IMG/VR virus record: IMGVR_UViG_3300042556_001118
Location: 1 to 27,382 of that record
DNA: 27,382 nucleotides
From: a virus
Strand: one strand, 5' to 3'
Shown here in pieces: positions 1,002 to 25,770 of the stretch. The number at the start of each line of letters is the position of its first letter. The first letter of the stretch is position 1. Position numbers and translations under genes: made by a program. The notes beneath the pieces are model-generated. The model was not told the DNA's origin. It saw only the letters and a program-made list of their open reading frames with translations, and did not search any database.

Positions 1002-2453
1002 ATGAGCATAAATAAAATTATTATTGTGGGCGGCGGATCTGCAGGATGGATGACCGCTTCTACTCTTATAAAATTTTTTCCACATAAACAGATAAGTGTC
1101 ATAGAGTCTATTGACATACCTACTGTAGGAGTTGGAGAAAGCACCATCGCCGAAATGAAGAACTGGATCAAAGCATTAGGCATACAAGACAAAGACTTCA
1201 TGAAGGAATGTGACGCCTCTTACAAGATGTCTATCAAATTTACCGACTTTTATAAAAAAGACTTTGGATATTTCTTCTACCCAATCGGCGGACCTTACTT
1301 AGGGAATACTGAAAAAGGAGTTTTAGACTGGCACGTACTTAAAAAAAATAATTCAGATTTAGACCTAAAAGACTATGTTAGATCATATTACTCTGCCGCT
1401 GCCTTATTCGAACAAAACAAAATATCAGAAAAAGATAACTTTGATAACTTTAACTTTTACGAACATGTTGTATACCATTTTGATGCTGCCAAATTTGGAA
1501 ACTGGTTAAAAGAAAAATATGCCAAACCCAAAGGAATAAATCATATTATAGGAAATGTTAAAGATGTTGTAGTAGAAGATGGTATTAAAGAATTAATTAT
1601 GGAAGATGGATCTATACATACCGCCGATCTTTACATAGACTGCACAGGATTTAAAAGCCTACTATTAGGTCAAGCACTAGGTGAAGAGTTTGTATCTAAA
1701 AACAATGTGTTACCAAATAACCGTGCCTGGGCTGTAAGACTACCTTACAAAGATAAAGAAAAAGAACTAGAGCCATTCACAAATTGCACAGCAATAGAAA
1801 ATGGTTGGTGTTGGAACATACCATTATGGTCAAGACTAGGAACTGGATACGTATACAGCGACAAGTATGTTAGCCCAGAAGAAGCACTTGTTCAATTTAA
1901 AAACTATTTAACATCAGACAAGATGATAGTTAAAAGAAGATTAGAAGATTTAGAAGGATTACAATTTAATGATGTCAGAATGCGTGTTGGAATACATAAA
2001 AGAACTTGGGTAAAAAATGTTGCAGCAATAGGATTGGCTGCTGGATTTATTGAACCACTTGAAAGCAATGGGCTATTCACAGTTTATGAGTTCTTATTTA
2101 AAATGATAGAAACAATTGATACTCTGGACATAGATAAGTACAATAAAGAAACTAGATCTATATATGATGACTTTCTTAACTTTATATCATTACATTATTC
2201 TTTAAGTCAAAGAGAAGATACGGGGTATTGGAAAGATATGTCCAATAATCCAGAAATAACAAATATAAAAAATAAATACAATTATTCAAATAATGGAATG
2301 ATGTGCATGCTATCTGGAATGAATTACACATATGATGTAGATGGAGATATTGATAGTATTAGTAAGAATTTAAATGATAATAAAGATAGATGGTCTACCC
2401 TGGCTAAATCAGAGCCAAGCCTTTACCAGTATTTGCAAGATAACATATATTAA
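1002..2453 (+). CDS. Flavin-dependent halogenase (tryptophan halogenase family), copy 1
   Basis: 483 residues, within the usual size of the family. It should use FADH2, oxygen and halide to form hypohalous acid and halogenate an electron-rich aromatic substrate in the cytoplasm. The FAD-binding GxGxxG motif is at residues 10-15 (GGGSAGW), VGVGEST at 42-48, the catalytic lysine at K79 (SIKF), the diagnostic WxWxIP motif at 269-274 (WCWNIP), and a GFIEPLESNG segment at 348-357 that carries the family's catalytic glutamate. All key residues are present, so it looks active. No flavin reductase is in the window, so reduced flavin would come from the host or another phage gene. Halogenases of this family are known from marine phages, for example VirX1 of a cyanophage, which prefers iodide. 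Substrate and halide cannot be read from the sequence. Start chosen at ATG 1002 with AAAGGA upstream. A paralogue lies at 19652-21250 on the other strand. Confidence 0.93.
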   Translation: MSINKIIIVGGGSAGWMTASTLIKFFPHKQISVIESIDIPTVGVGESTIAEMKNWIKALGIQDKDFMKECDASYKMSIKFTDFYKKDFGYFFYPIGGPYLGNTEKGVLDWHVLKKNNSDLDLKDYVRSYYSAAALFEQNKISEKDNFDNFNFYEHVVYHFDAAKFGNWLKEKYAKPKGINHIIGNVKDVVVEDGIKELIMEDGSIHTADLYIDCTGFKSLLLGQALGEEFVSKNNVLPNNRAWAVRLPYKDKEKELEPFTNCTAIENGWCWNIPLWSRLGTGYVYSDKYVSPEEALVQFKNYLTSDKMIVKRRLEDLEGLQFNDVRMRVGIHKRTWVKNVAAIGLAAGFIEPLESNGLFTVYEFLFKMIETIDTLDIDKYNKETRSIYDDFLNFISLHYSLSQREDTGYWKDMSNNPEITNIKNKYNYSNNGMMCMLSGMNYTYDVDGDIDSISKNLNDNKDRWSTLAKSEPSLYQYLQDNIY

Positions 2454-17600: not shown

Positions 17601-18200
17601 ATGGCATCAGCATCAATATTAAACACAGGCAAAGCAATGTATGCATGGAATGGCACTAATTGGGTACCTTTAAATTCTTTGAATACCGTTGTTAATTCAA
17701 CACGTTGGCAGAAAGTTGCGGTAGGAAATGAAACTACCCTTTCTGGTTTAGATGATAACAATAACACATTAAGTTATTCCCCAGGGTATGAACAAGTATT
17801 TTTGAATGGAATTTTATTAGTAAGAGGCACTGATTATACTGCTTCAAATGGTGTTTCTATTACAGGTCTTGAACCAATTTCTGCGGGTGCAAATATAGAA
17901 ATAATTGCTTTAAAACAAATTAATCTTGCAAATGTTTACACAAAAGAACAAACCGATAGTATGATAAATAATATTGATTTGACACCTTATTTGACTCAAA
18001 TTAGTGCTAGTGTTACATATGAACCTAATATTAGTTATTCTTCTTCTACCCCCGCTGCTCCAGTTGCTGGAACTTTATGGGTTGATGACACAGATCCTTT
18101 GGCCCCAGTATTAAAAGTGTATAATGGTAGTGAGTGGATTACAATGTCTGGTGCAGGTGGTGGAGGACTAAAAACTCACTTCTTGCTTATGGGGGCTTAA
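17601..18200 (+). CDS. Short type A tail fibre protein of cassette 3
   Basis: 199 residues, a condensed version of the longer fibres: MYAWNGTNWVPLNS near the start, the NGI beta domain (RWQKVAVGNETTLSG ... VFLNGILLVRGTDY, about 34-104), VYTKEQTDSMINNIDL, YLTQISASVTYEPNISY, and AGTLWVDDTD / LKVYNGSEWITMSGAG at the end. The Ala/Ser coil is nearly absent. The 3' end shares a run of about 30 bases with 7323-8366 (around 8281-8309 and 18112-18141). It starts a compact A-B-C cassette whose genes abut or overlap. Confidence 0.8.
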   Translation: MASASILNTGKAMYAWNGTNWVPLNSLNTVVNSTRWQKVAVGNETTLSGLDDNNNTLSYSPGYEQVFLNGILLVRGTDYTASNGVSITGLEPISAGANIEIIALKQINLANVYTKEQTDSMINNIDLTPYLTQISASVTYEPNISYSSSTPAAPVAGTLWVDDTDPLAPVLKVYNGSEWITMSGAGGGGLKTHFLLMGA

Positions 18201-18533
18201 ATGGCTACAGAAACGATTAAATCTGCTTCTTACTTATTGCCAGCAGCAAATACGCTGAGCACTCTTTACACTGTTCCTAGTTCAACACAAGCAGTTGTTT
18301 CAACTATCAATGTTTGCAATACAGCATCTGCTGACGCAACATATCGGATTGCAATAGTACCAAACGGTGTCTCAATTACAAATGCTAACTATATTGTTTT
18401 TAATGCAACAATTTCAGGTAATGAAACTATAGCATTTACTCAGGGTATCACAATGGATTCAGGAGATTTATTAAGAGTGTTTGCAAGTAGTGCATCAGTT
18501 GCATTTAATGCTTTTAAAATGGAGATTTCATAA
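18201..18533 (+). CDS. Type B small beta protein of cassette 3
   Basis: 110 residues, ATG immediately after the previous stop. LLPAANTLSTLYTVPSSTQAV is followed by STINVCNTASADATYRIAI, GITMDSGDLLRVFASSASV and a final FKMEIS. It is the third member of the family that always precedes a glycine-rich adhesin here. Its stop overlaps the adhesin start (TAATG). No enzymatic motif is present; a structural or assembly role is inferred. Confidence 0.75.
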   Translation: MATETIKSASYLLPAANTLSTLYTVPSSTQAVVSTINVCNTASADATYRIAIVPNGVSITNANYIVFNATISGNETIAFTQGITMDSGDLLRVFASSASVAFNAFKMEIS

Positions 18534-19531
18534 TGGCAATAAATAGTTCTAAAGCATCTATTGTAAATAGTTCTTTATTTACTAGATCTGAAATGCAAAT
18601 ATTGTTTCCTTCTAACTCTTCCCCCGCTTTATTTAACTATGTTGCCAATGGTATTGCAACTGGATTAACAAAAAATCAAATTTTAAGTGCTGCAAGATAT
18701 TTAACATATGTACAAAATCAAGGTTTTACAATTGAAACTATTAGTGGAACAACTTATGCTAAAAGAGAATTTTTAACTAGTGGAAATTTTGATCCTGGAG
18801 TATTTAGTGGATCTAGTGCAAGAGTTTTAGTTGTTGGAGGTGGTGGTTCTGGTGGTGCTGCTCATGGTGGTGGTGGTGGTGCTGGAGGTGTTGTTGTTCA
18901 TGATTCTTTTGTTACAACTGGAACAAGTGTAGTAACTGTTGGTGCTGGTGGTGCTGCAAGACCAGCGTCAAGTAATGTTAATGGTCTTAATGGTGGAAAT
19001 TCTTCTATTTATACTTTAACTGGAGTAGGTGGTGGTGCTGGTGGAACTCATCATAATCCAGGTCCTGGTACTGCTGGTGGTTCTGGTGGTGGTGGTGGTA
19101 TCGGTAATGCTGACGGAGATCAGCCAAGTGGTGGGTCAAGTATTCAAACTTCTTTTGCTGGTGCAACAGTTTATGGTCATGCTGGAGGGGTTGGAAGATA
19201 TAACAGTTCAAATAGTTATCCTGGTGCTGGTGGCGGTGGTGCTGGAGGTCGTGGACTTAATCATAATGAAAGCAGAGAAGGTGGACCTGGAACATTGTAT
19301 TTAGGAAGTTATTATGGTGGTGGAGGTGGTGGTGGTGCTGCATCTGGTGGTGCTGGAGGAATTGGTGGTGGTGGTGCTGGTGGATCAAGTGGCATAGGTG
19401 GTGCTGGACAAGATGGTACTGGTGGAGGTTCGGGTGGTGCAGGTGGTGGAGTTTTTGGAAGTCGGGTTGGTGGTTCAGGAATAGTTATAGTTAGATATGC
19501 ACTAACAGTTCCATCGGTGTTTGGAGCATAG
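18533..19531 (+). CDS. Glycine-rich adhesin of cassette 3, with atypical head
   Basis: 332 residues. The first 75 residues differ from the other adhesins: SEMQILFPSNSSPALFNYVA and GLTKNQILSAARYLTYVQNQ look partly helical. The usual elements return with KREFLTSGNFDPGV and ARVLVVGGGGSGG. A Gly-rich region of about 220 residues with VVTVGAGGAARPAS follows, closing GSGIVIVRYALTVPSVFGA, a longer tail than its paralogues. The distinct head suggests attachment to a different fibre or a recombinant origin. It is presumed a receptor-binding tip. The tiny Cys-rich gene starts one base after its stop. Confidence 0.83.
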   Translation: MAINSSKASIVNSSLFTRSEMQILFPSNSSPALFNYVANGIATGLTKNQILSAARYLTYVQNQGFTIETISGTTYAKREFLTSGNFDPGVFSGSSARVLVVGGGGSGGAAHGGGGGAGGVVVHDSFVTTGTSVVTVGAGGAARPASSNVNGLNGGNSSIYTLTGVGGGAGGTHHNPGPGTAGGSGGGGGIGNADGDQPSGGSSIQTSFAGATVYGHAGGVGRYNSSNSYPGAGGGGAGGRGLNHNESREGGPGTLYLGSYYGGGGGGGAASGGAGGIGGGGAGGSSGIGGAGQDGTGGGSGGAGGGVFGSRVGGSGIVIVRYALTVPSVFGA

Positions 19532-19532
19532 T

Positions 19533-19634
19533 ATGGATAATATTTGTGAAATAGAAGATTGTCTTTGTAAAAAAAATATTCAACAATTACCACAAGAATG
19601 CACAATTGAAGATTGTCTTTGTAAACAGTCTTAA
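19533..19634 (+). CDS. Tiny Cys-rich peptide with a duplicated CxIEDCLCK unit
   Basis: 33 residues, ATG 19533 to TAA 19632-19634, with GGAG (19523-19526) six bases before the start. It holds two copies of the unit C-x-I-E-D-C-L-C-K (residues 5-13 and 23-31), giving six cysteines in a C-x4-C-x-C spacing. The DNA units (19551-19571 and 19605-19625) differ at one base in 21, so the peptide arose by a recent internal duplication. The cysteines could bind metal (one or two small zinc or iron sites) or form disulfides. I do not recognise it. It is the last rightward gene before the convergent halogenase operon and is likely co-transcribed with the adhesin upstream. Confidence 0.6.
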   Translation: MDNICEIEDCLCKKNIQQLPQECTIEDCLCKQS

Positions 19635-19651
19635 TTTATATTAATTAAAAT

Positions 19652-21250
19652 CTAATCTTTATAAATATTTTTCTTTAAATATTCGTACATTGTTAATTCT
19701 TTTTCTGCAGCCTTTTTCCATTTAGCCTGTCTTGCTTCAAATCTTTCTTTCATTTCTTTTGCCATAGCATCATAGTTTTGATCGGGGTAGTATAATTCTT
19801 TAATCTTTATAATATAATCATCTACTAATTGATACCCCATTCCTGTTGATATATAGTTTATTCCACCGATTGGGTTTTGAAAATCATATTGGAACATAAA
19901 TATGTCTTCAAAGTTTAGATACCCTGATTGAAAATTACCTTTTCCTAGGATCATATCTTTGCTAAATTCTTTGTTTGATATTTCTTTCCAATATTCTGTA
20001 TCTGTTCTATTGGTCAAAGCATAATGTAAACCAACAAATTCAGAAAAGTTTTTAACTAGTTGTCTAGTAGCAGTATTAAACATATCTTTGTCGTATTGGT
20101 TAATTTTTGGGGTTAATAATACTCTTACTAGTTTGAATAGGAATTCGTGAACACTATATAGTCCATTGCTTTCTAATGGCTCAATAAAGCCTGCAGATAA
20201 TCCTATACCCACAACATTTTTTACCCATACCCTTGAATGTATGCCAGTTTTCATAAATACTTTTCTGAATTGTAGAGCGTCTACTTCTTCTTTGGTTCTG
20301 GGGACTACCATTTTGTCTGACATTAAATATTGTTTAAATTCTTCTAGGGCTTCTTCTTCTGTTGTATGTTTTGTACTAAATACATACCCTGTTCCTATTC
20401 TAGAATACAGTGGAGTATTCCATACCCATCCATTTCCTAGGGCTGTACAGTTTGTGAAAGGTTGCATCTCTGCATCTTTGTCTTTATATTCTAATGGGGT
20501 TGCCCACGCACGATTATTGATTAGATTATCTTCAAATGATTCAAATGGTTCATTCAAAGCACCTTCTAATAACATACTCTTGAATCCACTGCAGTCAACA
20601 AATAGATCTGCTGTTATTGTTTTGTTATTGGCTAATACTAATTCAGTAATACCAGATTCATCTGTGTTAACTTTTTCAATAGTTTCTACAATATGCTTTA
20701 CACCTTTTGGTTTAGCATATTTTTCTTTTAGCCATCTTCCGAATTTGATAGCATCAAAGTGATATGCTAGATCTAAATCAAAGTTAAAGTTTTCAAATTG
20801 TTTATCTTTATTTTTAGATATTTTGTTGGATTCGTAAAGTGCTGCTGATGGAAAGTATGATCTTGCAAAGTCTTCAACATGTGTTTCTGGGTATTTGTGT
20901 TTTACTAAATGCCAATCCCAAAGATTCCAACCTGTTCCTTCTGTATATGGGCTACCAAATGGGTAATGGTATCCACCATCTCCTACATGACCAAAGTCGT
21001 TAAACTTAATACTTAGTTTGTATGTAGCGTCACAGTCTTTCATAAAGTCTTCATCTTTAATGCCTAAAATTTTAAGCCAGTTGTTTATAAAAGCAGTTGT
21101 ACTTTCTCCTACCCCGATAACTGGAACATCTGCTGATTCAATTAAAGTGATATGTTTTTGTGGAAAAAACTTTATAAGGGTTGCGGCAGCCATCCATCCA
21201 GATGTGCCTCCACCAACAATAACAATGTTATTAATATTTTCTGACTTCAT
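19652..21250 (-). CDS. Flavin-dependent halogenase (tryptophan halogenase family), copy 2
   Basis: 532 residues from ATG 21248-21250 (MKSENINNIVIVGGG). A TTG further upstream would only add residues overlapping the previous gene. GxGxxG is at 13-18 (GGGTSGW), IGVGEST at 45-51, the catalytic lysine in SIKF at K82, WVWNTP at 275-280 in place of WxWxIP, and GFIEPLESNG further on. It is clearly homologous to copy 1 over most of its length. It is about 50 residues longer, with insertions near 85-110 (GHVGDGGYHYPFGSPYTEG) and in the C-terminal third. The Ile-to-Thr change in the signature motif could alter the substrate pocket or reflect a subfamily. Its ATG overlaps the stop of the membrane protein gene, so the two are translated together from the TTGACA/TAGAAT promoter at 21580-21608. 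Confidence 0.92.
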   Translation of the reverse strand: MKSENINNIVIVGGGTSGWMAAATLIKFFPQKHITLIESADVPVIGVGESTTAFINNWLKILGIKDEDFMKDCDATYKLSIKFNDFGHVGDGGYHYPFGSPYTEGTGWNLWDWHLVKHKYPETHVEDFARSYFPSAALYESNKISKNKDKQFENFNFDLDLAYHFDAIKFGRWLKEKYAKPKGVKHIVETIEKVNTDESGITELVLANNKTITADLFVDCSGFKSMLLEGALNEPFESFEDNLINNRAWATPLEYKDKDAEMQPFTNCTALGNGWVWNTPLYSRIGTGYVFSTKHTTEEEALEEFKQYLMSDKMVVPRTKEEVDALQFRKVFMKTGIHSRVWVKNVVGIGLSAGFIEPLESNGLYSVHEFLFKLVRVLLTPKINQYDKDMFNTATRQLVKNFSEFVGLHYALTNRTDTEYWKEISNKEFSKDMILGKGNFQSGYLNFEDIFMFQYDFQNPIGGINYISTGMGYQLVDDYIIKIKELYYPDQNYDAMAKEMKERFEARQAKWKKAAEKELTMYEYLKKNIYKD

Positions 21251-21555
21251 TATGCTCCTAGAAAGTGTTTTGCTATTGCAATAATTGCGAGGGTAGTCCA
21301 AAGAATGTTAAACCATATCAAAGTAGGAATAGTCTTTTTAGTAGAAGACCAAATTAAACCAACACTTGAAATAGCAGCAAAAATATAAAACCACCATATT
21401 TGAATACCAAATAATAAACCTGGAATAATGATCATACCTTTTGCTACAAAAGCAAAGAATTCTACTGTATTAGGCTTATTCCAATACTTTTTATATCTCA
21501 TGGTTTTAAGGGCTTCTAGCCATTCCATGTGACGAGCAACTTTTTTCTTTGACAT
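21250..21555 (-). CDS. Small multi-pass membrane protein coupled to halogenase 2
   Basis: 101 residues. A charged N-terminal part (MSKKKVARHMEWLEALKTMR, 1-20) is followed by two or three hydrophobic segments, about 33-50, 52-70 and 77-97 (the last LIWFNILWTTLAIIAIAKHF). AGAAAGG lies 5 bases before the ATG. Its TAA shares one base with the halogenase ATG. I do not recognise the family. A membrane protein stoichiometrically coupled to a halogenase could place the enzyme at the membrane, move halide or substrate, or simply share a promoter; none of these can be decided here. It is first gene of the only two-gene leftward operon in the window. Confidence 0.72.
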   Translation of the reverse strand: MSKKKVARHMEWLEALKTMRYKKYWNKPNTVEFFAFVAKGMIIIPGLLFGIQIWWFYIFAAISSVGLIWSSTKKTIPTLIWFNILWTTLAIIAIAKHFLGA

Positions 21556-21579
21556 ATAAACCTTTCTATTTACCCCTTA

Positions 21580-21608
21580 ATTCTATCAGAAAAGCCAGGG
21601 GGTGTCAA
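21580..21608 (-). promoter_or_regulatory. Leftward sigma70-type promoter of the membrane protein/halogenase operon
   Basis: On the minus strand TTGACA (21603-21608), a 17-base spacer and TAGAAT (21580-21585), with the start codon about 25 bases further on. The -35 is perfect and the -10 differs at one position. It is the best full promoter in the window. Confidence 0.78.
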
Positions 21609-24870: not shown

Positions 24871-25770
24871 ATGCCTTTAATTCTTGGATTAGGTGCTGGT
24901 GGAATACAGCCAGGAACTCCTACAATAGGTGTAGCAAATGCTGGAAATGCACAGTGTACCGTATCTTTTACTGCACCAACCTATCTAGGAAAACCAGTAG
25001 GAACAACTTATACAGCAACATCAAACCCTAGTGGAATTACTGGAACAAGTTCAACATCTCCAATCACTGTTAGTGGATTATCTAATGGAACTGCTTATAC
25101 ATTTACAGTTACATTAGGAAATGGAGTTTCAACATCAACACCTTCTGCAGCAAGTAATTCTGCTACTCCAGTAGCACCACCATTCTTCCCACCGTTCTTT
25201 CCACCATTCTTCCCACCGTTCTTCCCACCAAGTTTTGGACCTTGGTTCCCATGGATACCTCCAAGATTTATGGGGTGTATAGACTCACAAACTTTAATAT
25301 CGGTAGTTGGAGAAAATGACACAATTATAACCAAAAAAGCAGAAGATCTTTTAGTTGGTGACATAATTTGGGCACCAACATATACTGAGTATACAGATGA
25401 AAGTGTACAAAGCCCAGAAGAGTGGGAAGCAGAAATGTTAACAAATATGTCTAGAATAAAAACAACTGTTGTAAGTGCAGTTCCTAGTGTAAAACAAACT
25501 TTGTATTTTAATAATGACTCAGGAACTAGGATGTCATTTAATCAATTAATGTTATTAAAGCCTAGTGGTGAAAACTGGCAGTATTTAGAAACAAACCAAA
25601 CTGCGATAGGTGATTATATTATAAAATATAACCCAATGTCTGATTCTTTTGAAGAAACTGAAATAACTAATATAACAATAGATGAAGGCGGACCTAGGAC
25701 CGTATATGCAATATCCGTAGAAGATACAGACTTGTTTATTGCTGGAAATATGCTAGTTCATAATAAATAG
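24871..25770 (+). CDS. FN3 domain - PPFF repeat - C-terminal Hint domain protein
   Basis: 299 residues in three parts. Residues 14-103 look like a fibronectin type III domain (QCTVSFTAPTYLGKPVGTTY, then VSGLSNGTAYTFTVTLGNG). Residues 103-131 are four PPFF units and an aromatic-rich end (SFGPWFPWIPP). Residues 136-299 resemble a Hint (hedgehog/intein) domain: Cys136 in GCIDSQTLISV at the splice-type N terminus, AEDLLVGDIIW after it, TVYAISVEDTDLFIAGN and a terminal LVHNK with the His-Asn pair. The block B segment reads MSFNQLMLLK, with Asn/Gln where the conserved His is expected, so self-cleavage may be lost or altered. Ending one residue after HN means there is no C-extein. Such domains can end phage fibre-like proteins. 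Cys136 could cleave or cross-link the FN3-Pro arm; this is inference. Confidence 0.75.
   Translation: MPLILGLGAGGIQPGTPTIGVANAGNAQCTVSFTAPTYLGKPVGTTYTATSNPSGITGTSSTSPITVSGLSNGTAYTFTVTLGNGVSTSTPSAASNSATPVAPPFFPPFFPPFFPPFFPPSFGPWFPWIPPRFMGCIDSQTLISVVGENDTIITKKAEDLLVGDIIWAPTYTEYTDESVQSPEEWEAEMLTNMSRIKTTVVSAVPSVKQTLYFNNDSGTRMSFNQLMLLKPSGENWQYLETNQTAIGDYIIKYNPMSDSFEETEITNITIDEGGPRTVYAISVEDTDLFIAGNMLVHNK

Follow-up and report, generated by a model that had tools for sequence, protein, structure and literature searches.

What is encoded in the short gap between a Gly-rich tail gene and a convergent tryptophan halogenase gene of this virus, and does the small Cys-rich ORF in that gap specify a protein? 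We addressed these questions in a virus record of 27,382 bases, the whole of which we call the window; it contains a tail-fibre gene array, Gly-rich genes and two tryptophan halogenase genes (Table 1). The region from 17601 to 21601 finds its best DNA match in Synechococcus phages, via the halogenase, and one gene of the array matches, at the protein level, phages listed for Gammaproteobacteria, Pelagibacter, Synechococcus and others. The gene directly upstream of the small ORF matches both PHROG 2295 (unknown function) and PHROG 863 (tail fiber assembly). We refer to its product as an adhesin, a putative assignment by likeness to Gly-rich gp38 tips; an excerpt of one published report describes the gp38 tip proteins of T2-type phages as marked by Gly-rich motifs (PMC12892980). 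The halogenase gene on the other side has an ambiguous start site, with an alternative ORF start at 21301. Tryptophan halogenase genes, both this one and those in L079 and L012, are convergent to, and nearly flush with, the end of a tail gene that differs from phage to phage, as if they had moved as a cassette.

Table 1. Positions of the small ORF, its internal units and its neighbors in the window.
Feature	Position	Strand	Remarks
33-aa Cys-rich ORF, MDNICEIEDCLCKKNIQQLPQECTIEDCLCKQS	19533..19634	+	ATG at 19533; stop TAA at 19632-19634
Unit 1, CEIEDCLCK	19545..19571	+	nine codons
Unit 2, CTIEDCLCK	19599..19625	+	nine codons; 23 of 27 bases shared with unit 1
Start region, GGAGCATAGTATG	19523..19535	+	ribosome-binding site within the 3'-terminal codons of the upstream gene, the stop of that gene and the peptide start
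Gly-rich tail gene ("adhesin"), 332 aa	18533..19531	+	Pfam Gly_rich_2
Tryptophan halogenase, convergent	19652..21247	-	Pfam Trp_halogenase
Second tryptophan halogenase	1002-2453	+	

The initial annotation of the ORF had described six Cys in two nearly identical 9-residue units, a good ribosome-binding site and tight linkage to an adhesin gene. We confirmed all three: the six Cys of the 33-aa peptide are arranged as two C-x-I-E-D-C-L-C-K units, GGAG (19523-19526) lies 6 nt 5' of the ATG, and the ATG is located one base beyond the adhesin stop. Downstream, 17 bases separate the end of the ORF from the stop of the halogenase gene. The peptide contains no Trp, and we therefore ruled it out as a substrate for the neighboring halogenase. 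The two units are in the same frame, at an offset of 54 nt, and contain an exact 18-base repeat core, GAAGATTGTCTTTGTAAA, at 19554-19571 and 19608-19625; the nearest other match to this core in the window has 4 mismatches, and the flanks of the repeated block are unrelated. The earlier statement that the units differ at one base in 21 is correct for the last seven codons only; the full unit of nine codons has 4 differences in 27 bases. Nor does a recent duplication follow from the repeat: under the codon usage of the window, the chance that both units use the same codon at all six EDCLCK positions is about 0.03, and thus two units under protein-level constraint need not have been copied recently to be this similar.

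We compared the 120 bases from 19532 to 19651 with dinucleotide shuffles of the same stretch, reading one strand. An ORF of at least 25 aa with six Cys appeared in none of 20,000 shuffles; ORFs of at least 33 aa appeared in 1.2%. The longest direct repeat is 18 bases in the observed stretch versus a maximum of 13 in 500 shuffles, and the probability of at least six Cys in 33 residues is 8e-5 at the base composition of the stretch. In the genes of the window (25 listed genes, Gly-rich ones excluded), Cys accounts for 27 of 6,155 residues. Both the Cys content and the 18-base repeat of the ORF are beyond chance for this stretch. Across the whole window, read on both strands, 4 ORFs in the 25-60 aa range have a Cys content of 16% or more, and shuffled windows (n = 30) contained a mean of 1.2 such ORFs, with a maximum of 5. 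Short Cys-rich ORFs are thus not rare across the window, and Cys content alone proves little; the peptide ORF is singled out by its place, its start site and its repeat rather than by Cys content alone. We also considered an RNA element as the cause of the repeat and rejected it, because the repeat is explained neither by an RNA fold (z -0.80) nor by a terminator or an Rfam family.

Codon usage was then scored in two ways. The synonymous codon log-odds of the ORF is 8.6 bits, which equals or exceeds the score of 66% of 176 pieces of real genes and is attained by 11% of 80 wrong-frame pieces. The full codon log-odds, in which residue content is included, is -11.1; this value is below all 176 real gene pieces and is equalled or exceeded by 61% of the wrong-frame pieces. 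From these results, we conclude that the synonymous codons of the ORF are gene-like and that its residue composition is unlike that of the other proteins of the window.

The genes that follow orthologous adhesins bear on whether the ORF could be translated. Five distinct adhesins have a C-terminus of this type (counting L004-L007 once; L010 and L011 are identical here); behind them, we found genes of 70, 191 and 119 aa in three cases, the 33-aa peptide in one and a 36-aa ORF in one. The start site GGAGCATARTATG is present in L010 too, where the orthologous adhesin ends in GGAGCATAATATG and the ATG opens the 119-aa gene; similarly, one adhesin of L009 carries GGAGCATAA, followed three bases later by the ATG of the 191-aa gene. 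The last codons of the adhesin seem to carry the start signal for whatever gene comes next. This signal supports translation of the downstream ORF, not selection on the peptide, and suggests that the 3' end of the adhesin gene provides a start usable by different downstream genes. The proposal that the tiny ORF is coding, with a good ribosome-binding site, is thus favored by the repeat, the synonymous codons and the presence of the start site in another phage; what fails to favor it is conservation.

No homologue of the 33-aa peptide was found in any search, and so we saw no sign of selection; these searches may leave out very near records. A search for the C-x-I-E-D-C-L-C-K unit, of the kind proposed in the initial annotation, revealed no relative. 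The strict unit pattern gave 0 stretches in viral contigs; a relaxed pattern gave 7, all lacking a second unit in their frames of 27-204 aa; and a two-unit pattern gave a single match, within a repeat array on another phage contig (L133), opposite the strand of its main ORFs. Genome contigs yielded 5 stretches, each without a second unit in the frame read. With tblastn, the peptide had one match in phages (E 5) and one in plasmids (E 10), and PHROGs, NCBIfam, PADLOC and the PDB contained no relative. A whole-record search of 50 of the 125 loci L004-L128 found a peptide relative in 0 of 50, an empty result that carries no weight unless a known positive is present, although the same search did pick up the 36-aa ORF in 4 of 30 records. 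Scanning with the adhesin N-terminus confirmed no relative and is insensitive, since L007 and others hold orthologues, and scanning with the C-terminus gave 6 stretches, none of them the end of a Gly-rich ORF as printed. By title, none of the papers listed in literature searches on small Cys or zinc phage proteins deals with such a peptide.

In L004-L007, an adhesin orthologous to that of the window (50% identity) is followed by the 36-aa CxxC...CxxC ORF, MIEFIKCGTCHPELKYRNIHEVEECDICKNKEYIKE (L004:4049-4159 and four more contigs). This ORF is like the peptide in position, directly behind an orthologous adhesin, as well as in size and Cys pairs, and the two have in common the stretch NI-x-E-[IV]-E-[DE]-C...C-K. 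Unlike the peptide, it has CxxC spacing rather than CxxxxCxC, four Cys rather than six and no internal repeat, and it overlaps the adhesin stop by 4 nt (ATGA) instead of following a 1-nt gap. L156 is the same as L004-L007 across the 572 bases compared, and the 36-aa ORF is thus confined to one lineage. The best local alignment pairs NICEIEDC-LCKKN of the peptide with NIHEVEECDIC-KN; 31-40 of 1000 shuffles attained this protein score, the 36-aa ORF being one of ten proteins tried, and a 53-aa ORF of L181 that has no positional link scored better (4-24 of 1000). The best DNA alignment to the region of the 36-aa ORF begins immediately past the adhesin stop, at a score reached by 147-470 of 2000 shuffles, and BLASTP returned no match. 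We regard this weak sequence similarity as only a lead. Another type of phage contig (L152, L153, L159, L164, L166, L169 and L171) also contains tiny CxxC...CDICK ORFs, which carry a DLF motif close to their N-terminus, and the L152 ORF has sub-cutoff matches to DnaJ and anti-TRAP models. Kinship of the peptide with CxxCxGxG mini-proteins is not claimed, as the search pattern itself imposed E-[DE]-C-D-I-C-K.

We next compared the peptide with other small Cys proteins. FmdB-type zinc-ribbon ORFs of phages (Pfam Zn_ribbon_8; e.g., L024:5616-5813) resemble it as small Cys proteins adjoining a Gly-rich tail gene, but they are larger and have two CxxC pairs; the Zn_ribbon_8 matches of L024 (19.6 bits) and L072 (33.8 bits) fall under the curated cutoff of 34.4, and alignment to the peptide is not above shuffles. 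A 63-aa "...CPIGKW" ORF of cyanophages (e.g., Synechococcus phage S-IOM18) and related records is likewise small and Cys-rich, with CxxCxC, and 973-997 of 1000 shuffles align to the peptide as well as it does. Metallothioneins (Pfam Metallothio_11) share dense Cys and CxC motifs, of which the peptide has only two. The idea of a metallothionein-like effector has a single hint, a Metallothio_11 match at E 0.038 whose 14.6 bits lie below the cutoff of 27. Tested as a zinc ribbon or knuckle, the peptide lacks the two CxxC pairs, and no zinc family was listed for it at E up to 1 in any of Pfam, PHROGs and NCBIfam. In the related group, tiny zinc-knuckle-like ORFs are ordinary: reading eight related records whole (G001, G004, G005, G006, G007, G009, G013 and G027), a scan that includes chance ORFs, we found 20 non-overlapping two-CxxC ORFs of 36-83 aa in 6 of the 8. 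Of these, 9 lie in G006, and the 36-aa ORF is counted twice, in G001 and in G004. None occurred in G005, in G009 or in the window. Small Cys ORFs with a Shine-Dalgarno sequence follow 2 of 95 Gly-rich ORF ends (those of the window and L024) versus 4 of 1191 others, a count whose filter excludes the 36-aa ORF; we claim no enrichment from numbers this small.

In a reducing cytosol, a six-Cys peptide of about 33 residues most likely binds metal via thiolates. A metal-binding role, suggested earlier, is plausible by analogy with the tiny CxxC ORFs of relatives, and because of this analogy zinc is the default metal. Stabilization by disulfides, offered as its alternative, gained no backing: we saw no signal sequence by eye, and the single-sequence AlphaFold2 model is of low confidence (mean pLDDT 67.8, pTM 0.30); in it, each CLC stretch forms a short strand (residues 10-12 and 28-30). 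Our preferred but tentative reading, which we place somewhat short of an even chance, is that the ORF is a translated orphan phage microprotein, cytosolic, probably zinc-binding and coupled to translation of the adhesin; its translation, metal binding and place of action we infer. The peptide gene would be the last of the tail-adhesin segment, ahead of the convergent halogenase gene. Ribosomes leaving the adhesin would restart at the ATG, one base past the stop, with the aid of GGAG, and the peptide would remain in the reducing cytosol. There, the Cys of both C-x4-C-x-C units may jointly coordinate metal, most likely zinc, as one or two ions, giving a minimal knuckle-like scaffold that perhaps mediates contact between proteins during infection. 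If real, the peptide would add an orphan to the numerous small phage proteins liable to be overlooked by gene callers, and would be a simple natural example of a metal site built by half-site duplication.

It is also quite possible, and only slightly less likely, that the 120-base gap between adhesin and halogenase is a remnant of mosaic recombination, in which a short dispersed repeat is open by accident and any peptide is translated noise. The tail region is indeed highly mosaic, with pieces common to relatives in differing order and halogenase genes adjoining different tail genes; the unrelated flanks of the repeated block, the lack of a homologue in our searches, the full codon score and the short Cys-rich ORFs of shuffled windows all fit such filler. 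Filler does not readily explain why six Cys never arose in 20,000 shuffles of the stretch, why the repeat is in frame, why the synonymous codon choice is gene-like, or why the ORF is preceded by a start site common to another phage.

An unlikely alternative, which is compatible with the microprotein reading, is that the peptide is a degenerate relative of the 36-aa ORF of L004-L007 that lost the N-terminal knuckle, duplicated the C-terminal one (NIHEVEECDICKN) and lost one residue between Cys. The shared place behind an orthologous adhesin, the aligned NI-x-E stretch and a DNA alignment starting right after the adhesin stop argue for this descent, but a fraction of the shuffles reaches both scores, BLASTP finds nothing, an unlinked ORF scores better and the 36-aa ORF is known from one lineage only. 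That such knuckle loss and duplication yielded a 33-residue metal binder from two C-x4-C-x-C half-sites, a new mini-fold near its origin, is quite improbable. We consider very improbable a peptide associated with the virion or with adhesin assembly and disulfide-stabilized outside the cell. Its close linkage to the adhesin gene would suit such a role, but no secretion signal is evident by eye, and the orthologous adhesins of L009 and L010 directly precede other genes. The adhesin thus seems not to need the peptide next door, and the adhesin-folding role initially suggested gained no backing.

The window has several other features. A GC-rich hairpin (2459-2500, + strand) lies right behind the first halogenase gene, with an unexceptional energy (z -1.23 versus shuffles). 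An 81-aa ORF (2563-2808, - strand) has a DUF7455 match and Cys pairs. A tail-array protein (24871-25770, + strand) has an FN3 domain and a PPFF repeat, followed by an intein/Hint-like C-terminal part whose Pfam Intein_splicing match (E 1.4e-6, 28.6 bits) is under the cutoff of 35.8; this part begins near GCIDSQTLI and ends with LVHNK.
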